Source of the DNA: a virus
Length of the DNA: 64,000 bases
Strand: one strand, 5' to 3'
Virus record (IMG/VR): IMGVR_UViG_3300035182_002586
Span: 1 to 64,000 of that record
The notes below the pieces were generated by a model. It was given only the letters and a program-made list of their open reading frames with translations. It searched no databases and was not told the origin of the DNA. Position numbers and translations under genes: made by a program. Of the stretch, positions 1 to 63,204 are shown in pieces. Position 1 is the first letter of the stretch. Each line of letters opens with the position of its first letter.

Positions 1-786
1 TCACTCCTGACGCTCCAGCGTGATGCTGGCGAACGGGCAGAGGGTCTTGCGGAGGAGGAGCAGGCACCAGTCCTGGATGACGCCGATGACGAGGACGAGG
101 AGCTGGATCGCGAATACGGCGTCGAGCCTGATGTGCTTGTCTTCGGTGAGCATCATCGCACCGAGCCCGCCCTCGAAGCGCACGAGACCCTCGACCATGG
201 TGAGCATCACCCACCCCATGGCAGCGTTCTGCCGGATGATGTCGAGCACGGCGTCCATGCGACCGAGGATCACGACCTCAACGACCGACCCCCACGGCCC
301 CATGCGCAGCGTCCGGGCGTGATCGAACTCCTCTTTCGGGATCGACTCCACCACGTCGTAGAGGGACGTGAGCATGAACGCCCCCATCCCGAAGACCAAG
401 AGGGCGACCTTGAGGCCGTGACCTCCGCCGAACGTGATCGTGAAGAGCACCACGATTCCCGTCAGGCCGAGGAAGCGGAGCTTGCTGAGCACCCGCACGA
501 GCGGCCGCATGATCGGCAGCACCGTGAGGTAAGCGATCGGGAGCGTGAGCAGACAGGTGATAGCGATGGCCTGGAGGCTCGTCGACAGGCTCATGTAGAG
601 CTGGTTGAAGAGCCCTTGCGACAGGAGCGCAGGGTAGGCCGCGAAGACCTCTGCCGGCCCGGGAAGGAAGGGGGGCCGGCACGCCCACGCGCCGAGGAGC
701 GCGATGGACGTGCCGACGGCCAGCAGAAGCCTCGCCCTAGGGGAGATGCGACCGTTCGGCCGCCACATATCACGGAACGTGGACAC
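1..786 (-). CDS. ABC transporter permease-like membrane protein
   Basis: A 261-aa polytopic membrane protein that looks like the permease of a nitrate/sulfonate/taurine-type ABC importer (SsuC/TauC, BPD_transp_1 family). It has about six hydrophobic segments (near residues 20-40, 65-90, 105-125, 128-145, 190-205 and 220-245). An EAA-like loop sits around residues 148-175, where ESIPKEEFDHARTLRMGPW resembles the ATPase-contacting loop. The start overlaps the upstream 66-aa gene by 17 nt, which suggests translational coupling, and it is the last visible gene of a membrane operon that also encodes a substrate-binding/OmpA fusion. No ATPase gene is visible; it could lie left of the window. An ABC permease is very unusual in a phage. 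The family call is inferred from the hydropathy pattern and loop. Confidence 0.75.
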   Translation of the reverse strand: MSTFRDMWRPNGRISPRARLLLAVGTSIALLGAWACRPPFLPGPAEVFAAYPALLSQGLFNQLYMSLSTSLQAIAITCLLTLPIAYLTVLPIMRPLVRVLSKLRFLGLTGIVVLFTITFGGGHGLKVALLVFGMGAFMLTSLYDVVESIPKEEFDHARTLRMGPWGSVVEVVILGRMDAVLDIIRQNAAMGWVMLTMVEGLVRFEGGLGAMMLTEDKHIRLDAVFAIQLLVLVIGVIQDWCLLLLRKTLCPFASITLERQE

Positions 787-970
787 TGGTTTCCTCCACC
801 ACAGCGTAGACGTTCACGATGTCAGAGGTCTCGGCGCCATTGCAGGGGCCGAAGTAGATCTCGGTGCAGCGATCGAGGCCCAACTCGTCGAGCCTACGGA
901 GGACATCCCCGTGGAGGTTACCGATCGGCATGGGACCCTCCACCGTGAGCACGTGTACGCGCTTCGTCAC
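770..970 (-). CDS. Small protein of the membrane operon (66 aa), unknown
   Basis: A soluble-looking 66-aa protein (starts [12 protein letters not shown]) between the OmpA-fusion gene and the permease gene. Its ATG overlaps the upstream stop (ATGA, 967-970) and its own end overlaps the permease start, so the three genes are translationally coupled. It has two cysteines, no membrane segment and no family I recognise. By position it may be an accessory subunit of the transporter-like complex. Confidence 0.7.
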
Positions 971-2763
971 GTGCCCGATCCCATGATGATCTCGACGCGA
1001 CGGTTCTTCGTACGGCCCGTGTCAGTGTCGTTCGTCGCGACGGGCTTGGTCTGGCCGAACGCTTTGACCGTGAAGCGGTCCGCCGGGAAGTTCGACGGCG
1101 ACTGCTTCATCAGCCACGACTTGACCGCTTCGGCGCGCGACTTCGAGAGGACCATGTTGCCCGCAGCGTCGCCCGTGTTGTCCGTGTGGCCGTCGATCTC
1201 GATGAGAAGGTCGGTGAGCACGAGGTCCTTCTCCAGCTCGCGGAGCGTCGCCTCGGTCTCCGGGGTGAAGCTCGCACTCCCCGACTGGAACGTGATGCTC
1301 CACGCGCGCTTGCTCACGACCTGCGCGATGGGCGCATCGGGCTTGTACTTGGGGAGGTCCGGGGCAGCCGTCTTGCCCGGGGCAGCCTTCTTGCCGAGGT
1401 TCGCCACGTAGGACGTGTCGAGGATGTCGTCGACCTTCGGGTAGGAGGGGACGAGCTTCGGGTACTGCTGGACGGCGATGTCGCCGAAGACCGTGTACGT
1501 AGCCGCGAACAGGTTCGAGCCACCCGGCGTGAGGCCGAAGACGTTCATCCCGTCCGCGAGGTTCAGCACGGCCGAGCCACCGAGGGTCACCTGGAGGCCC
1601 TGCTTGTCGGTCTCCGTGACGCCCTTGAAGTACTTCTCCCAGTAGTCCGCCGTCTCTTCCTTGTAGACCACCGCGCTGATCTCCGCAGCCTTACGACGGG
1701 CCTCGGGGAACGCGTTGATCTGATCCGCCGCCTCGAACGACGCCGAGAGCATCCCCTCGACCACATCGCGGTGGGCGCGGTCCCACTTCCGGATGCCGAT
1801 GATCGTCGTCGGCATCTGCGAGCGGTACTCCTTGGTGCTGACGATGCTGACGAGCCCGCCCTTCTCCTTGGCCACGTTCACATCGCCCGGCGTCCAGGTC
1901 ACCACGCCGTTGACGCAGACCTTCCGCGTCTCACCCGTCGGCTTGCCCGCATGCACGACCTTGCGGTCTTCGCAGGTGTTGAGGATGTACTTCTTCGAAG
2001 CGTCGAGGTACGTGTCCACGGCCACCCAGTTGAGCGCGTCCGGATCGTAGGTGGTCTCGTCGGGGTTGTTCGGGATGTTGTTGTCGCCGGCCCACTTCAT
2101 CGCGATGTTCCAGTCGCCGTCACGGAGCACGCCCGCGATGAGCCCGCCCTGCGCCGCCTTCGGGTTCGCCTTCCACTCGGGCGGACCCATGAACTTGTCT
2201 TCGCCGCGCGAGTAGCCGATCACGCCGACGACTTCCGCCGTACAGTCGGCGCAGATCTTCGCGAGGTCGGCGTTCACGCCCGCGAACCACGCGGGGGTGC
2301 CGTCGCCCATGAGGATCACGAAGTGCTGACCGTCCGTCGTGTCGGGGTTCTTCTGGATCCCCTTCGCGAACGCCATGAGCTGCGCCGCCATCTTGCTCGT
2401 GTCGTCCTCACGCGTGAAGTGCAGGTTGATGCCCTTCGCCGCCATGAGGGAGCCTTCGGTCGTGTCCTGGCCGCCGTTGGCGAACAAGATGCCGCTCTGC
2501 GCGTTCCAGGCCCACACCATCATGCGGACCGGCGTGCCCTTGCCCACCGGGTTCGCCCCCGGCAGAGCCGTCTTCGACACGGGGCCCGTCGGCGCCGCGT
2601 TGTCGGGCATGGTCGGCAACGCGGCTTGCTTCGGCACCTCGGCCGCCTTCTTGGGCGAGCCGATGATCCCGCTGGTCACGAGGTAGCGGAACGTCATGAA
2701 CAGGACGACGAAGATCGCGATGCCACCGAGGATCTTCGGGAGCGGTTTCACACGAGTAGCCAT
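967..2763 (-). CDS. Membrane-anchored substrate-binding domain fused to OmpA peptidoglycan-binding domain
   Basis: A 598-aa protein. Residues about 10-33 form one membrane anchor, followed by a Pro/Ala linker. Residues about 75-460 resemble a periplasmic ABC substrate-binding domain (phosphate/NMT1-like bilobal fold) with an internal pair of cysteines. After a second linker, residues about 485-598 are an OmpA C-terminal domain: [12 protein letters not shown], the [12 protein letters not shown] helix and [10 protein letters not shown] are the peptidoglycan-binding signatures. The protein would be anchored in the inner membrane and grip the cell wall. It lies 27 nt after the coiled-coil membrane protein gene and overlaps the next gene by 4 nt. 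NCBI uses the name phosphate ABC transporter substrate-binding/OmpA family protein for cellular proteins of this architecture; its presence here beside a permease is notable. Confidence 0.8.
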
Positions 2764-2790
2764 GGGTCAGCCTCTCTCTTCCTTCTGCAT

Positions 2791-3843
2791 CTAATACTGA
2801 CGGTTCTTGGCCTTGTCGGCCGGAGTCTGGAACAGGTCGTCGAACGCACTCACGCTGTGCGCGGGGAGGGCGTTGACGTGCGTGCCGGGGGGCGCTTCGA
2901 TGCGAAGACCGGGGGGCGCGGACGTGTTGGAGCCAAGGATGCTCGTGTTGCTCTGCTCCCACGCTTCGAGCTGCGCGAGGGCGTTGGCCTCGTAGATCCC
3001 GTTCTCCAGGTCCGCGGCACCGAGGACACCCTTCGAGGTCATCATGAAGGTCTCGATCTCGCCCATCTTCATGCCGTAGTCGTCGGCCAGGTGTTCGAGA
3101 GCCATGTCGAACATCTCCCGCTCGTCGCCACCGCCCTGCAAGATCTTCCGGGCGTTCGAGAACGCGCTGTAGCCCGCGAGGAGCGCCGCACGCTCCTTGG
3201 CACGCAGCTCGACCTCGTTGCTCATATCCTCGACCATCATCGCGGCCTTCGCACGAACGCGACGGAGCGTGTCGAAGAGCTTCTGGAAGTCGTTCATCGT
3301 CTTCTGGAGGGTCTTGTTCGACTCCGAGAGACGGTCGGCCTGTCTCGACTGTACGATGAAGGTATCCCGGTTCTCTTCGTTCGGCTGCTTTTTCGCCTGC
3401 TGCATCAGCGCGAGACAGTGCTGACGGGCTCGCTCGTTCTCCTCGATGTTCACGGCGAGCTTCTTGATCTGCCCACCGAGATTCGTGATCGAGGTGTCCA
3501 TCTCGTCACGGTGCGCTTCGAGCGTCTTGATGTACGTCTTGAGGACGCCGATGGGGTCGATCTCGATGAAGAAGCCCGTGAGGGTCCGCATCAGCGACTT
3601 GTACCCGTAGACCATCAGGTTGCGCCAACGCGGGTCGAAGAGAACGACGCCGATCACGGCGAGGATGCCTGCGAGCGCCACCGCCGTCAGCGTGTTCTCC
3701 AGCATCGTGACGACCCACGGGAGGATCGTCCCCCACATGTAGATCACGAGGCCCACGACGCATGCGCCAGCGCCCACCGTGAGCGCCGTACCGAACTTCC
3801 CCTCTGGCCGCGCGAGCCAGCTCTTCTGCTTTTCCACAGCCAT
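2791..3843 (-). CDS. Two-TM membrane protein with PspA-like coiled coil
   Basis: A 350-aa protein. Two hydrophobic helices (about residues 20-43 and 48-68) precede a long helical coiled-coil region (about 90-260) of PspA/TelA-like composition. The tail is proline-rich (APPGLRIEAPPGTHV) and ends KAKNRQY. It starts 3 nt after the preceding stop and shares an operon with a soluble coiled-coil protein, an OmpA fusion and a permease-like protein. It was probably made to sit in the host inner membrane. There are no catalytic motifs. The PspA resemblance rests on architecture only, not on a recognised signature. Confidence 0.75.
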   Translation of the reverse strand: MAVEKQKSWLARPEGKFGTALTVGAGACVVGLVIYMWGTILPWVVTMLENTLTAVALAGILAVIGVVLFDPRWRNLMVYGYKSLMRTLTGFFIEIDPIGVLKTYIKTLEAHRDEMDTSITNLGGQIKKLAVNIEENERARQHCLALMQQAKKQPNEENRDTFIVQSRQADRLSESNKTLQKTMNDFQKLFDTLRRVRAKAAMMVEDMSNEVELRAKERAALLAGYSAFSNARKILQGGGDEREMFDMALEHLADDYGMKMGEIETFMMTSKGVLGAADLENGIYEANALAQLEAWEQSNTSILGSNTSAPPGLRIEAPPGTHVNALPAHSVSAFDDLFQTPADKAKNRQY

Positions 3844-3846
3844 GAA

Positions 3847-4530
3847 TCACCCCTTCGCCAATGCGTCGATGTGGGACTTCTGATCGTTGAGGCGCCCGAC
3901 GACCTGCGCGTGCGCGGCCTCGAAGCCCATGCGGATGCTGTCGAGCCGGTGCTGCTCCTCCTGGAGGTGCGAGGTGTCCAGCGCGAGCTTCGACTTGAGC
4001 GAGACGATCTCGTCTTCGATCGCCCTGAGCTGGCTCTCCCTCGACTGGAGAAGGGATTCGGTCGACGCGATGGCTTCCTTCGCCGCACTTTCGACCTTGG
4101 AGGTCTGCGCCTGGAATCCGCGCAGGAACTCTTCCTGCGCCTTGTCCATGGTGTTGATGAGCTGATCGACGGCACCCGAGAGCTGCACGGGCGTCGCGTT
4201 GCTCGTCTTGAGCGCGGCCTTGAACCGCATGGACTCGTCGGGAATGACCTCGGCGAGCTGCGTGTACTTCTCCATCCACGTCGAGTAGACGGGAGGCAGC
4301 GCCGCCTGGAGCATCGCTTCGAGCTTCGCCATCGCCGCGGGGTCCGCCGCCACGGCCGCCTGGGCCGGGCGAGGGGCGACGGATGCGCTCCCCGGCGGAG
4401 GCATGGGCGCCTGGCTCTCCCTGGCCTTGGCAGCTTTGGGTTGTGCCTGCCCTTCGGGCACCTCTTCGACGAAGGCGCTCTTGATGAAGCCGAGGAACCC
4501 GCCGCCGCTCTTCTCGTTCTTGTCCGACAC
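3847..4530 (-). CDS. Soluble coiled-coil protein, first gene of the membrane operon
   Basis: A 227-aa protein with an Ala/Pro-rich N-terminal third (to about residue 65) and a helical coiled-coil C-terminal half rich in Gln, Glu and Lys. I place the start at the GTG at 4530 (reads M/V-SDKNEK) because it follows a Shine-Dalgarno-like AAAGGCGG, and because the GGTGTA promoter element at 4576-4581 lies inside the longer possible reading frame. It is 3 nt from the next gene. The function is unknown; the context suggests a partner of the PspA-like membrane protein. Confidence 0.75.
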   Translation of the reverse strand: MSDKNEKSGGGFLGFIKSAFVEEVPEGQAQPKAAKARESQAPMPPPGSASVAPRPAQAAVAADPAAMAKLEAMLQAALPPVYSTWMEKYTQLAEVIPDESMRFKAALKTSNATPVQLSGAVDQLINTMDKAQEEFLRGFQAQTSKVESAAKEAIASTESLLQSRESQLRAIEDEIVSLKSKLALDTSHLQEEQHRLDSIRMGFEAAHAQVVGRLNDQKSHIDALAKG

Positions 4531-4575
4531 GTCTACCGCCTTTCCACGGATGCTCCCGAGGGAGCTGCCCTTAGA

Positions 4576-4581
4576 TACACC
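4576..4581 (-). promoter_or_regulatory. GGTGTA promoter element of the membrane operon
   Basis: On the minus strand this reads CCGGTGTATC, about 46 nt before the GTG at 4530. Unlike most copies in this window it is followed by a leader containing a Shine-Dalgarno sequence and a small inverted repeat (GCTCCC...GGGAGC). Confidence 0.55.
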
Positions 4582-9611: not shown

Positions 9612-9773
9612 CTAGGGGTCGAAGTAGAGCCGCCCCAGCGGTCCACCCGTAAGGCTCCGGCGTCCAAGAGCGAACAACCCAGTAGCAGCACCGGACAACA
9701 CGTGGGGCCCCGTCTTGCCGGAGAGCGCGGGGCCTTCGACGCTAGCCCTTCTATCGAAATCCTCCTGGTGCAT
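9612..9773 (-). CDS. Possible small ORF (53 aa), doubtful
   Basis: An open frame (MHQEDFDRRAS...) that fills the otherwise empty 9604-9771 interval. Its ATG shares the palindromic CATG with the first possible topoisomerase start. No promoter element lies upstream and codon bias is unremarkable. If it is not a gene, this stretch holds nothing I recognise. Confidence 0.3.
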   Translation of the reverse strand: MHQEDFDRRASVEGPALSGKTGPHVLSGAATGLFALGRRSLTGGPLGRLYFDP

Positions 9774-10671
9774 GGCCCCCGGAATGGTTCTTCGAGTTGC
9801 TGCCCGGTTCCAGGTTGAAAACCAGGAGGGGCGGGTACGGCTTGCAGCTAAGTACAAGGGCAAGACAGTTTCCGAAGAAGGGAACGTCATCTACCAGTAC
9901 AGTGAACGGCAGATCGCACTCCGCAACAAGGCGAAGGCCGAGAAAATCGAGGGCCTGAAAAGGCACATCGGTGACCTTCGGGCGACCGTCAAGAAAGATC
10001 TCCGCTCGGAAGATCCCGAGACGATGTTGACAGCACTCGCGGTGGCCTTGATGGACCACACGTTCGAGAGAGTCGGCAACGAGGAGTCAGCCAAGGACGG
10101 GCACGTTGGAGTGACTGGCTGGGCAAAAAAGCACATCAGCTTCGGCAAAAAAGTCACCGTCAGGTACGTCGGAAAGTCCGGCGTGAAGCACACAAAAGAG
10201 ATTACAGACGCGGGCCTAAAGAAGGCGCTCCGTGACGCCTATGAAGCGGTCGATGGGGACAACGAAAGCATCTTCTCGTGGGACGGCGGAAAGGTAACGG
10301 CCGAGAAGGTCAACGCCTACTTGGAGGAGTTTGGCATCACTGCGAAGGACATCCGAGGCTTCCACGCGAATGACACGATGCACGAGGCCCTACGAGCTGC
10401 ACGCAAAGCAGGCGGAAAGCTCCCCGAGGACAAGAAAGCTAGGGAGAAGCAACTCAAGGAGGAGTTCAAGAAAGCTCTCGAAGAGACGGCGGATGTCGTC
10501 GGCCACGAGCCTGCGACCCTCCGTTCACAGTACTTGGTCCCGGGGCTAGAGTCGGACTACCTACGGGACGGTACGATAACGGACTCTTTCATCAAGTCCT
10601 CTTCCAGTCTTGCAGCACGCGTCGTCGACCGTTATCTTAGGGTGCATGAAGTGGGTGATCTACGTCCTTGA
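9772..10671 (+). CDS. DNA topoisomerase IB
   Basis: A type IB topoisomerase relaxes supercoils through a 3'-phosphotyrosine intermediate. From the ATG at 9772 (299 aa) the catalytic set can be placed by analogy with the poxvirus enzyme: Arg100 in FERVGNEE, Lys135 in VGKSG, Arg195 in IRGFHAND, His245 in VGHEPATLRSQY and nucleophile Tyr254. The His-to-Tyr spacing of nine is the same as in vaccinia. The N-terminus carries the VLRVAARF motif also seen in two other proteins here. An alternative ATG at 9784 would start exactly at that motif. The end overlaps the GIY-YIG gene by 26 nt. Confidence 0.88.
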   Translation: MAPGMVLRVAARFQVENQEGRVRLAAKYKGKTVSEEGNVIYQYSERQIALRNKAKAEKIEGLKRHIGDLRATVKKDLRSEDPETMLTALAVALMDHTFERVGNEESAKDGHVGVTGWAKKHISFGKKVTVRYVGKSGVKHTKEITDAGLKKALRDAYEAVDGDNESIFSWDGGKVTAEKVNAYLEEFGITAKDIRGFHANDTMHEALRAARKAGGKLPEDKKAREKQLKEEFKKALEETADVVGHEPATLRSQYLVPGLESDYLRDGTITDSFIKSSSSLAARVVDRYLRVHEVGDLRP

Positions 10672-11376
10672 GGATCCGCGTCCGGTACGTAGGAGTGACC
10701 CACCAAGAACCTAAGAAGCGGCTTCTCAATCATCTATCCCGAGCCCGAAAGGGTGCTCGTTACCATCTGTTCAACTGGATCCGAAAACTGCTAACGGAAG
10801 GCGTCGAGCCTACTTTGCGGGTAATCGAAACCGGGTCTGGGGACGGGTGGGGCGAGGCCGAGGCCAAGTGGATTACACGGCACCGCCTTCAAGGGTGTGC
10901 CCTCACGAACGCTACGGATGGAGGTGAGGGTTGCCCCGGGCATACGGTATCCGACGAAGCTCGCGCAAAGATCCGTGCTGCTCGTTTGGGGAAGCCTCTG
11001 ACAGAAGAACACAAGGCGAAGGTGGCTGCTGGTAACCGAGGGAAGAAGATGTCCCCGGAATCCATCGCTAGGGGCGTCGATAAGCGACGGGGGCTCAAGC
11101 ACACACCAGAAGCTAAAGCGAAGATCTCCGCCTCACGTAAAGGGGGGGAAAGGGTGGAAGCCTACCCCCGAGCAACTCGCTCAACGGGCCGAAGCTATCA
11201 AGACAGCCCTGGCGGCGAAACGTGCCTCCGGTTGGGTCAGACCCCCTGTGAGCAAGGAAGCGTGCGAAAAGATCAGTGCCTCTAAGAAAGGGTGGAAGCC
11301 TACCCCCGAGGCAAGAGCACGGATGTCTGCCGCGAGGCGACAACGGGACGCTTCACGCAAGACCGACCCGGTGTAG
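10646..11376 (+). pseudogene. GIY-YIG/NUMOD3-type homing endonuclease, broken by two frame breaks
   Basis: The gene begins at the ATG at 10646 (MKWVIYVLEDPR), a GIY-YIG N-terminus. The family then expects RYVGVT, which lies in the next frame, so a frame change is needed near 10680. The central part continues with NUMOD3-like repeats (ARAKIRAARLGKP, AKISASRKG). At a run of seven G (11142-11148) the frame breaks again, and dropping one G restores GKGWKPTPEQ and further repeats down to the TAG at 11374-11376. Each break needs one extra base removed (731 nt, minus 2, is 243 codons). The longest intact piece is 10668-11285. It sits directly after the topoisomerase gene, as expected for an inserted homing gene. 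Either a decayed gene or sequencing indels. Confidence 0.75.
11370..11375 (+). promoter_or_regulatory. GGTGTA promoter element overlapping a stop codon
   Basis: CCGGTGTAGATG, 10 nt before the ATG at 11386. Its TAG ends the GIY-YIG frame. GAGGGGG follows, so both leaderless and Shine-Dalgarno starts are possible. Confidence 0.55.
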
Positions 11377-57452: not shown

Positions 57453-59369
57453 TCAGAAGCGGTTGTCTTCTCCGCCCCCACCCTCACCCTCAGGCTTCTT
57501 CTTCATCTTGAGCTTGAGATAGTGGGCGATGCGTTCGGCGATGTCCGTCTCCTCGGCGAGCTTACCCGCGACGCCCGTGGAGATACCACGGATGACCTCG
57601 TTGAACGTGGAGTCGTTCACCGTGAACATGTCTTCTTCGAGCTTCTTCTTCGTGTCCACCGGATCGATGTTGAACATCTCCAGGATGACGTCGATCGGCA
57701 CTGACCCCTTGATGTAGAGGTTGTTGAGGGCGTCGAACGTGTCCTGCGAGTCGCGCAGCGGCAGACGCGTGAACGTGAGCTTCGGGTAGAGGACGATCTC
57801 CTCCCCCCACTTGTCCTTCTCCACGAACCCCTTGCGCCGTGCGACGGGCTTGAAGAGATACTCTTCCACGTACTCCTGGAGCACGTCGCGGAGGAACATG
57901 TAGCGCGAGTTGATGACTTCGAGCTTGAGACGGTCGCCCGAGAAGAGGGTCTCGCCACTCATCAGCGACTCGGTGACGCCGAGCCCCGTGATGAGGTGCT
58001 TGTCCGTGATCTCGTACTCACCTGAGAGGTCGAGGAGGCGGTCCTTGCTGCCCATCTCCTCCCAGTGAACCTCGTAGTTCGCGACGATCGAGTAGTCCGG
58101 GTCCACGAGTGCAAGGTCAACCTGCTCGCGAAGCTGGTCGGTGTCGGACTCTGAGATACGGTCTCCCCAGACGATGCGCTTCGGGGTCATCGCACGGCTG
58201 GCGATCTGCGTCTGCGCCTGGCGGAGCTTCTCCTTGTAATAGAGGTCGCGGAGGCAGCGGTCGAGGATGGACTGGCCGAGTTCGTCCGTCGCACCACGAC
58301 GACCGGCGAGGTGGTAGACGAACGAGCCCTCGTCGGGGTCCGTACCAAGCGGGATCAAGCGTCCGCGCTCGATGTGCTCGCGCACCTCTTCGGGGATCTC
58401 TTGGGCCATCTGCTCGGCGATGGGGTCGCCGCCCATGCGCGCCTGCTCGATGAGCCCACGGTCTCGGTCGGAGGGGATCAGCTCGATGCGAACCTTGTCC
58501 GTGAAGCTGTACGTGGTGACCTTCACCTGGTCGAGGGGCATGATGATCAGGCGATCCCACCCCTTGTACTGCTTCCGGTAGTGGTTCAGCTCCTCTTCCT
58601 GACGGTTGGCCTTCTCGACCCACTCCGTCGACTCCTCCTCCATCGTCTCGCCGTCATCGGAAAGAACATCCCTCTTGACGACTCTCTGCTCGTAACCGAT
58701 CTCCGGAGGGAGCGGCACCTCTGAGTCTTCGGCGAAGATGAATGCGTTGCCGTCGAGCCAGTAGTGGTGAACTGCGGTGATCAAGCGCTGGAAGAGCTTG
58801 ATCCGCTTGCACATGCGATCGAAGAAGTTGAAGATGTACTTGCCGTAGTCGTCCGGCGAATCGAAGCCCTTCGGGCATGTACGCGGCTTCGGGGCCGCGA
58901 GTCTGACCTTCGAGAGCGGCAGCTCCGTGTGCAGGTCGATGGCCTGCCCGACCAGGGGGTCAGAGTTGTAGAAGTGTCGGTAGATCTCCCGCTTCTCGCG
59001 GAGGCTCTGCGGCAGCTCCAGGAAGTCGGTCGAGAGCTGCGGGGAGAAGAAGTTCGAGCCCGTGGAGATGGAGGTGTTCATCCCCATCCCGCCACCAGCC
59101 ATGGCCATGTCGAGGGCCGCGCCACGCTGGTTGAAGTTCGGGCCTCCCCCTGAGGGTCGGTTGAAAGTCCCCGTTCCCGTCCCAGCCGTTCGGCTGAACA
59201 CGTTGGGGCGGCTCACCATCCGGGCCTGACGGCGAGCCTCTCGCTCCTTGTCGGTGAGAGGCATCGTGTGGTGTCCCCCGCTCGACGTGTAACCGCCAAT
59301 GCGCGAGGAGACCGTCGGGACGACGACCTGCCGCTGAGGCGAAACGTTCGTGAAGCTACCGGGAGGCAT
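57453..59369 (-). CDS. Portal protein
   Basis: A 638-aa protein with the portal layout. A Gly/Met-rich N-terminal linker is followed by a large alpha/beta domain with FFSPQLSTDFLELPQ, YNSDPLVGQAIDLHT and LDGNAFIFAED, a middle stem/crown region with long helices, then an acidic Lys/Glu tail (KLKMKKKPEGEGGG). Size, position directly after TerL-side genes and domain texture fit the DNA-entry vertex dodecamer. The start at the ATG at 59369 (GGAG 9 nt upstream) overlaps the previous gene by 14 nt. Confidence 0.75.
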   Translation of the reverse strand: MPPGSFTNVSPQRQVVVPTVSSRIGGYTSSGGHHTMPLTDKEREARRQARMVSRPNVFSRTAGTGTGTFNRPSGGGPNFNQRGAALDMAMAGGGMGMNTSISTGSNFFSPQLSTDFLELPQSLREKREIYRHFYNSDPLVGQAIDLHTELPLSKVRLAAPKPRTCPKGFDSPDDYGKYIFNFFDRMCKRIKLFQRLITAVHHYWLDGNAFIFAEDSEVPLPPEIGYEQRVVKRDVLSDDGETMEEESTEWVEKANRQEEELNHYRKQYKGWDRLIIMPLDQVKVTTYSFTDKVRIELIPSDRDRGLIEQARMGGDPIAEQMAQEIPEEVREHIERGRLIPLGTDPDEGSFVYHLAGRRGATDELGQSILDRCLRDLYYKEKLRQAQTQIASRAMTPKRIVWGDRISESDTDQLREQVDLALVDPDYSIVANYEVHWEEMGSKDRLLDLSGEYEITDKHLITGLGVTESLMSGETLFSGDRLKLEVINSRYMFLRDVLQEYVEEYLFKPVARRKGFVEKDKWGEEIVLYPKLTFTRLPLRDSQDTFDALNNLYIKGSVPIDVILEMFNIDPVDTKKKLEEDMFTVNDSTFNEVIRGISTGVAGKLAEETDIAERIAHYLKLKMKKKPEGEGGGGEDNRF

Positions 59370-59829
59370 CGTCAACCAGCTCCTTGCCGTACAGTTCAAT
59401 CAAATCATCCATCGGCTCCCCCTCCGAACCCGACGGGCGAGTGACCGCAGAGGGGCTCATCGCCTCCTGCCGGGCCTCACGGGCCCGCCTCTGCTCGGTA
59501 GCCTCCCGGCGCCTCCGTTCCTGCTCTTCCCGCTGTTTCTCCTCCGCAAGGCTCCGGTGGCCCTCGTCGAGCATCCGGTCCGCCATCTCGGTGCGACGCA
59601 CAGCCTGTTGGACAAGGCCGGCAACACGTGCCCAGGCGTTGGCGTAGACCACGTGCATGGCCGCAACAGGGTCCGCCGAAGCGCGGCGGCCGTCACGTCT
59701 GGACCGCTCCAGAAGCGCCTTACACAGCTCCCCCATCCGCGCGGTCCCGCGCGTGATCCCTCCGTGGATCGCCCGGATTTCCGTGACGATCTCCGCGTAG
59801 GACATCTGTTGAGGGTTGTTGGAAGGCAT
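59356..59829 (-). CDS. Helical protein between TerL module and portal (157 aa)
   Basis: Starts MPSNNPQQMSYAEI. A strongly helical, Glu/Arg-rich coiled-coil centre (EEQERRRREATEQRRARE). Coupled to the portal gene. Possible minor head protein; no family recognised. Confidence 0.75.
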   Translation of the reverse strand: MPSNNPQQMSYAEIVTEIRAIHGGITRGTARMGELCKALLERSRRDGRRASADPVAAMHVVYANAWARVAGLVQQAVRRTEMADRMLDEGHRSLAEEKQREEQERRRREATEQRRAREARQEAMSPSAVTRPSGSEGEPMDDLIELYGKELVDDASR

Positions 59830-61176: not shown

Positions 61177-63204
61177 TTACCGGCGGAACCGGAGACCGAG
61201 GCTCTTCGGGACGGCCCGCTCCGAGAAACCCCCGTGCATACGGGCTCGGGAGAGCTGATAGGCCCCCGTTCCCGCCGCCCGCGAGATGGTCGGTGTGGCT
61301 GTTGCTCCGTAAAGCGCGCGCCCTTGACCGAGCCTCTCCACAGAGAGCCAGACCGAACGTACAAGGGCGTCGCTCATGTCGTCGTGCTTGCCCTTCGGGG
61401 CCTCGACTTCGACGATGTTCTTGCTCACCTGCTCGGCTTGGAGAGTCATCAGCTCTGTGATGAGCGGGGAGTGCTTCAAGTTGTCCCCCACGCCTGCCGG
61501 GGGCGGCCAGTCGTAGAGACGAAGCTTGCGGTCGTACATGAGCAGCTTCGTCGCCTGGAACATCTGCGACGTGTCCATCTTCTGGAAACGCTCAGACCGG
61601 AACTGCTTGAGGCCGCGCTTGTGGAGGTTCTGCTCCAGTGAGAGCCCCTCCCACCGGTCGAAGATGACGTCGGTGATGTAGAAGCGCCTGCACATCACCT
61701 CCATCCAGTTGGCGATCTCGTCGAAGTCGAGGCGCTCCACGTCCCGGAGCGTGCGTGCGTACGGCGTCGTGAACTCGGTCAGGTGGGGGTTGGACTCCCG
61801 CCAGTCCGTACCCGCGTACCAGACCTCGTGATAGTCGATGACGATCACGTCGTCTTCCACGTGGGAAAGCACGAAGGCCGTACCGTCGCCGACAGCCGCG
61901 ACGTCGAGACCGCCCTGGTGCGGTGCCCGGGGGATGCCCTGGAGCCTCGGGCGATGCTCGGGGTCAATACAGGCGAGGAGGTCCTCGGGGCGTTCGATCC
62001 ACCCGCGCATACGGTCGGAGAAGCGCGCCCCGTGCTCCACCATGAAGCTGTTCGGGTCCGCGTGGAACCGCTGCCGGTAGTAGCTGATGGGGACCGACGG
62101 GTTGATCTCCCACGTCGGCATCTGGAGAGCGAGCATGTTCTCGGACCCCTCTCCCCTCGACATCGCGAGGTTGAAGAGGTCGAAGAACTGTCCCTGCTTG
62201 TTCAGGGGGGACGAGATGCAGATGATGCGGCTCTCGACCGGGTAGTCCGTCCCGTCGGGGTGCTTGAGCACCATCCCGTCCGGACCCTTCGGAGAGAAGG
62301 TCGCTGCGGAGGGCTGGACCGCCTTGTATATCTCCTCGGCCGAGGACCCACCTTCGTCGATGAAGTGAGCCATCTCGTCGAGGATGATGACGATGTTGCC
62401 CATACCACGGAGGCCCTTCGCGATACAGGGGCGGAACGTGACCCTGATCGAGGACTTGCCGTTGTAGCTGACGAACTTCCCGTCGGCGTGGCGGTTGTAC
62501 GTGCCGAAGGTGTCGAGGTCGAACGGTGTCTGGAGGTCTACGAACGTCTTGTTGTCGGAGAGCTTGTACGGGTGGAAGTACTCGCACCGCGCCATGTGAT
62601 TCGAGACTTCGCGGAAGAGAATCGCCGCCTGCTCCTTATCGGTAGCGACGCTGACGATCTGGATGGTGTTACCGTCCGGGAGACCGTAGTACTCCTGGGG
62701 GTTGTACATATTCAAGAGGCGGTAGACCTCGTACGAGGCGAAGATCGACGAGAGCATGGTCTTGCCCCCGCGACGCCCGATGGCGAGCACCAGCTCGCGT
62801 CGTTCGTGGTCCTGCTCTCGGATGTTGCAGCGTCCCTCGTCATAGAGGTGCCGCAGGTACTCCACCTCCGTGAAACGCCCTACGAGGTTCTCACGGAACA
62901 TGTCCCAGATCTCGATCGTCTTCTCCTTGTCATCGAGAGGGATGTGGTAGTAGAGCTTCACAATGAAGCGCTGGACTGGATAGAGCTTCCGATCCAGACC
63001 CCACTTGGACTCGATGTAGTCGATGACTGAGAAGATCTTGGGCTTCTTCGGCTGCGCCTGTCCTGTTGGGACGGGCATCATGGACGCGAGGTAGTCGTCG
63101 ACCTGAGGATCCTCGGTCCCGGTCCTCTCTGCTTCGACTTTGGCTTCTTGTGCGGCTTGGCGGAATAGCCCCGCCATCCCGCTGCCGCGTTTCGTGGCTG
63201 CCAT
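61177..63204 (-). CDS. Terminase large subunit (DNA packaging motor)
   Basis: A 675-aa TerL. ATPase domain: Walker A AIGRRGGKT (141-149), Walker B IVIILDEMAH (Asp276, Glu277), coupling segment LNKQGQFFDLF followed by a TWEINP stretch. Nuclease domain (RNase H fold): GLDVAAVGDG near residue 427, VIFDRWEG, and the C-terminal KHDDMSDALVRSV. The motor cuts and pumps DNA into proheads. The gene precedes the portal region as usual in tailed phages. It has an ATPase-only paralog at 51407-52297. Confidence 0.95.
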   Translation of the reverse strand: MAATKRGSGMAGLFRQAAQEAKVEAERTGTEDPQVDDYLASMMPVPTGQAQPKKPKIFSVIDYIESKWGLDRKLYPVQRFIVKLYYHIPLDDKEKTIEIWDMFRENLVGRFTEVEYLRHLYDEGRCNIREQDHERRELVLAIGRRGGKTMLSSIFASYEVYRLLNMYNPQEYYGLPDGNTIQIVSVATDKEQAAILFREVSNHMARCEYFHPYKLSDNKTFVDLQTPFDLDTFGTYNRHADGKFVSYNGKSSIRVTFRPCIAKGLRGMGNIVIILDEMAHFIDEGGSSAEEIYKAVQPSAATFSPKGPDGMVLKHPDGTDYPVESRIICISSPLNKQGQFFDLFNLAMSRGEGSENMLALQMPTWEINPSVPISYYRQRFHADPNSFMVEHGARFSDRMRGWIERPEDLLACIDPEHRPRLQGIPRAPHQGGLDVAAVGDGTAFVLSHVEDDVIVIDYHEVWYAGTDWRESNPHLTEFTTPYARTLRDVERLDFDEIANWMEVMCRRFYITDVIFDRWEGLSLEQNLHKRGLKQFRSERFQKMDTSQMFQATKLLMYDRKLRLYDWPPPAGVGDNLKHSPLITELMTLQAEQVSKNIVEVEAPKGKHDDMSDALVRSVWLSVERLGQGRALYGATATPTISRAAGTGAYQLSRARMHGGFSERAVPKSLGLRFRR

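Follow-up and report, generated by a model that had tools for sequence, protein, structure and literature searches.

Bacterial operons that bring together a PspA/Snf7-type protein, an ATP-binding cassette (ABC) ATPase, a permease, and a single protein combining a periplasmic binding protein (PBP) with an OmpA domain (e.g., OGG56892.1) have been noted by Ravi et al. (2024; PMC11237479), the main text of which, in term searches, mentions neither viruses nor bacteriophages. The main texts on huge, Lak, and Jug phages are likewise silent on such a set, that on the Jug phages reporting a pspA-like gene beside terD, and no phage copy was found described in the literature searched. Here, we analyze a locus of this kind in the first 4.6 kb of a 64,000-nucleotide stretch of DNA (the window), which represents positions 1 to 64000 of the 528,957-base virus record IMGVR_UViG_3300035182_002586 (IMG/VR). 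Judging from sequence comparison and structure prediction, the window appears to carry four-fifths of a five-gene phage module encoding one envelope machine. We are highly confident of the identity of its parts: a coiled-coil protein (CC), a PspA/Vipp1-like protein (PSP), a substrate-binding protein fused to an OmpA domain (SBP), a permease (PERM), and an ABC ATPase (ATP), of which the last is missing from the record. An earlier, first-pass annotation of this DNA had proposed an undescribed system. Because the bacterial operons of Ravi et al. (PMC11237479) had already been noted, that proposal survives in part: the kind is known in outline in bacteria, whereas, going by the literature searched, its occurrence as a phage module, the definition by five genes, and the extent of its distribution appear to be new. 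The features of the locus are as follows.

Positions 3847..4530, minus strand: CC, a predicted soluble coiled coil of 227 amino acids (GTG start likely, inferred from homologues; the longest open reading frame [ORF] reaches 4605).
Positions 2791..3843, minus strand: PSP, a putative PspA/Vipp1 (ESCRT-III superfamily) protein of 350 amino acids (profile, fold, hydropathy).
Positions 3625-3798, minus strand: predicted transmembrane (TM) helices of PSP, about amino acids 16-73 (hydropathy).
Positions 3016-3558, minus strand: PspA-like helical hairpin of PSP and the helices that follow, about amino acids 96-276 (profile, model).
Positions 967..2763, minus strand: SBP-OmpA, a predicted fusion protein of 598 amino acids (Pfam, AlphaFold2 model, Foldseek, conserved residues).
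Amino acids 4-36 of SBP-OmpA: predicted TM anchor, one helix (hydropathy).
Positions 1444-2535, minus strand: TauA/NrtA-type substrate-binding domain of SBP-OmpA, about amino acids 77-440 (Foldseek).
Positions 973-1329, minus strand: OmpA peptidoglycan-binding domain of SBP-OmpA, about amino acids 479-597 (Pfam E value 4e-20, Foldseek).
Positions 770..970, minus strand: 66-amino-acid ORF between SBP and PERM, unconserved and outside the module.
Positions 1..786, minus strand: PERM, a NitT/TauT-type ABC importer permease of 261 amino acids (profile against CmpB/NrtB).

All five window genes lie on the minus strand in the order CC, PSP, SBP, 66-amino-acid ORF, and PERM, just where the first-pass annotation had located them (positions 1 to 4581), with gaps of 3 and 27 nucleotides and overlaps of 4 and 17 nucleotides between them; their third-position GC content ranges from 0.81 to 0.93. 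That annotation had also counted the 66-amino-acid protein as a member of the cluster. This ORF has no Pfam or PHROG match, no shared family emerged for it in the neighbor analysis, and, as it is absent as a conserved gene in relatives, we rejected it as a module subunit.

The definition of the module rests on its conservation. With profiles of the five families, we scored 100 loci, 23 of them bacterial and 77 viral or other (the window being counted as incomplete among the latter), and at every one the module genes share a strand. A complete same-strand set was present at 20 of the 23 bacterial and 61 of the 77 viral or other loci, so that the recurrence of this gene set in other phages and bacteria, for which a search had been suggested, was found at 81 of the 99 loci other than the window; some of the incomplete loci stop at a contig edge. 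Only two orders occur among complete loci: CC-PSP-SBP-PERM-ATP (type I) and its cyclic permutation, PERM-ATP-CC-PSP-SBP (type II), the latter in phage G and other Bacillota-type contigs. PSP and CC are kept in almost every copy. Permease and SBP were found by tblastn in Bacillus phage G, in all 15 Lak-phage records listed, in LR756500 (462 kb), and in LR756501/503 (735 kb), and scans of viral contigs and bacterial genomes added many further loci. Phage G (L003, 13866-17071) encodes tandem SBP-OmpA paralogues, gp249 and gp250, that are 45% identical in the binding domain; nearly all other loci have a single copy.

Since the set is found in the isolated phage G and in many viral contigs, we ruled out the host contamination that the first-pass annotation had named as a threat to its proposal. 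By its gene content, the window contig itself is a tailed phage, with genes for a portal protein (57453-59399) and a large terminase (61177-63204) in the window and a UvsX-like recombinase and an NAD-dependent ligase also encoded on the record.

On its own, the window PERM matches the Pfam model BPD_transp_1 below threshold (20.3 bits versus a cut-off of 26.4), as it does the SaoP and TauC models. A seven-sequence PERM profile matched CmpB and NrtB, the permeases of bicarbonate and nitrate importers, respectively, with E values of 1.2e-16 and 4.4e-16. By these profile matches, PERM is a type I ABC importer permease of the NitT/TauT kind, within the BPD_transp_1/TauC-NrtB-CmpB group, and the earlier call of an ABC-type permease was upheld at the level of 1e-16.

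An ATPase gene had been expected to the left of position 1. No ABC ATPase exceeding the family cut-off was detected anywhere in the 529-kb record, also with a close relative's ATPase as the query, and family profiles found no module genes in its last 20 kb. Nearly all relatives do have the ATPase, and in the two nearest (L079 and L080) an ATPase of about 275 amino acids follows the permease within about 220 bp, a position that would fall off the end of the window's record. Were the gene truly lacking, a host ATPase might serve instead, multitask ATPases being known (PMC7658222). The gene is probably missing because the record begins exactly at the PERM stop codon (tca at positions 1 to 3), and the simplest reading is that the window ATPase probably lies just beyond the record end. 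The last three bases (record end 528957) are cat, the start codon of another minus-strand gene; joined in silico, the ends read TGA-ATG, both falling on minus-strand codon boundaries. We infer that the record looks to have been cut at gene boundaries; alternatively, it may be a rotated circle from which the ATPase was lost. Across 80 distinct ATPases, the Walker A motif was recognized in 75, the signature in 74, Walker B in all 80, and the H-loop in 75, and the module ATPase is the sole ABC ATPase over the cut-off in the records of LR756500, Lak-A1, and L105. At another locus, that of Lak-B5 (L006, 12696-15134), homing-endonuclease-like ORFs come after a full-length, divergent ATPase gene, and next to them is a C-terminal fragment of a Lak-A1-like ATPase, as if the ATPase had undergone replacement.

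The substrate-binding domain of the window SBP has no Pfam match; NMT1 matches were obtained for the versions in phage G, Lak phages, and the 735-kb genomes. The AlphaFold2 model of the window protein has a mean predicted local distance difference test score (pLDDT) of 89.5 and a predicted template modeling score (pTM) of 0.85. Foldseek aligned its N-terminal domain with TauA (TM-score of 0.72-0.75 by target length) and also with CmpA, NrtA, and SsuA, with a thiamin-bound protein among the matches, and its C-terminal domain with many OmpA domains, including 3td5, which was solved with a wall peptide. The model is that of a type II periplasmic binding protein of the TauA/SsuA/NrtA fold, and the fusion of a substrate-binding domain to OmpA, as originally annotated, was recovered in both halves. 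The lack of family support for permease and substrate-binding domain, against which the first-pass annotation had warned, did not materialize, given the profile of the relatives and the structure prediction. All 87 SBPs compared have S185, D189, and P292, and 85 of them have G187. Within the OmpA domain, the pair D528/R543 (TD...LSxxRA), of a kind that functions in wall binding, is invariant in type I, and R543 is invariant across the 87 SBPs. The assignment as an OmpA-like peptidoglycan-binding domain is solid by the Pfam match (4e-20) and agrees with the fold and the residue pair.

The PspA-like coiled coil of the first-pass annotation was likewise recovered, by both profile and fold. Searched against the PDB (177,635 sequences), the PSP profile yielded Vipp1/PspA entries as its nine best matches, with E values from 2.8e-7 (6zvr) to 9e-6, followed by the next coiled coil at 2.4e-4, and the alignment is collinear from the DP motif through the helical hairpin. 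A control profile of CC, another coiled coil, gave no Vipp1 match. The PSP model has a hairpin (amino acids 97-152 and 156-232) and then helices at 240-276 and 283-303, which is the ESCRT-III topology, and its six best Foldseek matches are Vipp1/PspA proteins, with Vipp1 on top. PSP is thus predicted to be an ESCRT-III protein of the PspA/Vipp1 type whose TM helices anchor it in the membrane, and we consider it probable that it stabilizes that membrane. CC has a short N-terminal motif conserved among relatives, a proline-rich linker, and a helical C-terminal part, and hydropathy revealed no TM segment in it. Flotillin/band-7 (SPFH) proteins are a known kind of PspA partner; at one bacterial locus (L074, 12667-14610), the operon is followed by an ORF that, on visual inspection, resembles this kind of protein.

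What might such a machine do? Every functional reading given here was drawn from homology and predicted structure. The superinfection exclusion, lysis timing, and membrane protection put forward in the first-pass annotation are conjectural roles at this stage. We propose that the module forms a functional importer, tethered to the wall and linked to a scaffold that maintains the membrane, a reading to which we give an even chance. The substrate-binding domain would be held by its N-terminal helix in the inner membrane and by the OmpA domain in the cell wall; so tethered, it would capture a small solute and pass it through PERM-ATP, while PSP, with CC, would polymerize on the inner face around the transporter, so as to stabilize or shape the membrane there and hold the importer in register with the wall. 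For a phage with a very large genome, the gain from making the module would be an infected cell that stays supplied with nutrients, and whose membrane stays tight, through a long infection. The conserved ATPase motifs, the SBP residues, and the permease argue for a working importer, and the wall tether and PspA-type partner argue that this importer is built into an envelope scaffold. On balance, we lean slightly toward real solute import by the module; that the phage would benefit through import and envelope upkeep jointly falls just short of an even bet.

Several observations weigh against this proposal. The EAA loop of the window-clade PERM, as read from the sequences, has an arginine in place of the usual glycine and lacks the trailing proline. 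At three loci (L007, L123, and L124) with a permease, no ABC ATPase anywhere in the contig exceeds the family cut-off. The PSP fold matches are weak in absolute terms (best E value of 5e-3; TMt of about 0.5), and 14 of 20 Bacillota-type proteins have asparagine, alanine, or a gap in place of D528 of the OmpA pair. Types I and II have different SBP pockets, which makes a single common substrate doubtful. Finally, a nutrient importer would usually be accompanied by catabolic enzymes or a regulator, and the bacterial copies have neither.

The absence of catabolic neighbors and the altered EAA loop leave room for a sensor or a remodeller. Here, SBP-OmpA would sense a solute or the status of the wall and alter the ATPase cycle, which would drive assembly or disassembly of PSP, the ABC ATPase replacing a Vps4-type AAA+ motor, with envelope repair, sealing after DNA entry, or membrane shaping during infection as the effect. 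Both the missing catabolic partner genes and the divergent loop of the window clade would suit this, as would the near-universal retention of PSP and CC. No conserved AAA+ neighbor was found at the loci, and none of 18 carrier genomes yielded an MIT domain, in a search that did not extend to AAA+ domains lacking MIT elsewhere in those genomes; the operons published for bacteria, by contrast, include an AAA+ ATPase (PMC11237479). The conserved ATPase and SBP residues, however, would equally be required for transport, PSP persists at three loci in which no ATPase was detected, and no ABC importer is known to drive an ESCRT-III polymer. We therefore consider a substrate-gated remodeller of this kind fairly unlikely; its fullest form, a phage wall-anchored ESCRT-III machine that remodels the host inner membrane with a solute-gated ABC core instead of a Vps4-type AAA+ motor, seems unlikely.

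Among near relatives, the module is common to the loci and its neighbors almost never are, and across lineages or in bacteria the neighbor analysis revealed no sixth gene recurring around it. As flanking genes are almost never shared, the module would seem to be kept as a unit that moves alone. In a tree of permease and SBP, the bacterial copies fall in separate groups inside mostly viral diversity, with, for example, a 416-kb viral contig (L040) beside a bacterial clade (support, 1.0). This suggests that the module has passed between phages and bacteria, with some deeper supports being low and the bacterial sample narrow. The bacterial carriers include sporadic Bacteroidota chromosomes, among them those of Flavihumibacter petaseus and Terrimonas pollutisoli; the operon was found in 23 of 200 genomes of the Chitinophagaceae-type family, and a set of 396 genomes from across the phylum gave 8 clear matches. 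We discarded a plasmid origin: the Chitinophagaceae relative of the window type had no plasmid match, and the Bacillota type had only weak, generic SBP matches. In the annotated phage collection searched, no full-length record with the module is shorter than 462 kb. A strict phage size class is weakened by viral contigs of 120-170 kb that carry the Bacillota type, perhaps as fragments (IMG/VR viral contigs often are, and some short ones may be bacterial), and we rejected a universal gene of phages larger than 450 kb, since LR756502 (642 kb), LR756504 (636 kb), and Atu_ph07 (490 kb) gave no match, at limited sensitivity.

A sporadic bacterial distribution, apparent exchange between phages and bacteria, and an envelope location for a self-contained cassette without metabolic partners would also fit an exclusion or antiphage module, i.e., an envelope complex that blocks or senses the entry of competing phages, in bacteria as well as in cells infected by large phages. 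We think this improbable: there is no toxic or nuclease effector, the bacterial copies lie among ordinary genes, and the ligand-pocket residues are preserved. PADLOC models gave nothing beyond generic similarity to OmpA (ZorB), coiled coils, and ATPases; as system-specific components remained unmatched, a known defense system was rejected.

The flanks did yield one lead as to a substrate, namely, import of NAD precursors or a related vitamin for use with phage NAD-salvage enzymes. Proteins of the SBP fold are generally known to bind several vitamins, and 15 of 28 carrier records have a NAPRTase/NAMPT-family gene, within 10 kb of the module in 6 of the 15 versus 1.5 expected (nominal P of 0.002, the test and distance cut-off having been chosen after the neighbors were seen and related contigs being nonindependent). 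Just upstream of the module in L105 (647-4175) lie nicotinamidase-like, Prs-like, NAMPT, and NAD synthase genes, and salvage genes are also near it in L084, L090, L040, and L106. Against this, neither NAPRTase nor isochorismatase was matched in the record to which the window belongs, NAD-salvage genes do not recur at the bacterial copies, and the pocket differs between types. We treat the NAD-salvage link as a lead only, and such an importer as very improbable.

Two further observations concern neighboring genes. Related copies of one gene recur in the flanks of 13 viral loci (L035, L042-L047, L050, L052, L053, L055, L103, and L106); by eye, the product looks like a WGR-domain protein. Elsewhere in the window, the plus strand encodes the catalytic core of a type IB (eukaryote/poxvirus-like) DNA topoisomerase I (9715-10671; Pfam PF01028, E value of 1e-28) and, directly 3' of it, a NUMOD3 motif protein, probably a homing endonuclease (10668-11285).

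Most of what the largest phages encode lacks an explanation, and the module stands out as a compact, recognizable envelope set, common to phages of Gram-positive and Gram-negative hosts, that would unite three subjects usually treated separately: import of solutes, tethering to the cell wall, and membrane care of the ESCRT-III type. Its presence in a long-studied isolate, Bacillus phage G, for which B. megaterium serves as the laboratory host, makes direct testing possible. The phage G locus (gp243-gp250), annotated piecemeal as a permease (gp243), an ABC transporter (gp245), and OmpA/MotB proteins (gp249 and gp250), is a type II version, differing from the window in its PERM-ATP-CC-PSP-SBP order, its two tandem SBP-OmpA genes, and the change of the OmpA aspartate to asparagine. 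With NitT/TauT importers (TauABC, SsuABC, NrtABCD, and CmpABCD), the module shares the permease family, the ATPase family, and the substrate-binding fold; unlike them, it has a membrane-anchored, OmpA-fused binding protein, PSP and CC as partners, no catabolic genes, and, in the window clade, an altered EAA loop. The collinear profile match, the hairpin topology of the model, and the top rank of Vipp1 by fold relate PSP to PspA and Vipp1 (IM30), whereas N-terminal TM helices instead of an amphipathic helix, the lack of PspF, PspBC, or Lia partners, and a constant place beside an ABC importer set it apart. Close in composition, too, are the operons reported by Ravi et al. (PMC11237479), which likewise combine a TM-bearing PspA-superfamily protein, an ABC ATPase (missing from the window record itself), a permease, and a single PBP-OmpA protein; theirs, as described, are bacterial and include an AAA+ ATPase, whereas the phage module has no such neighbor and counts a second coiled coil among its five genes.

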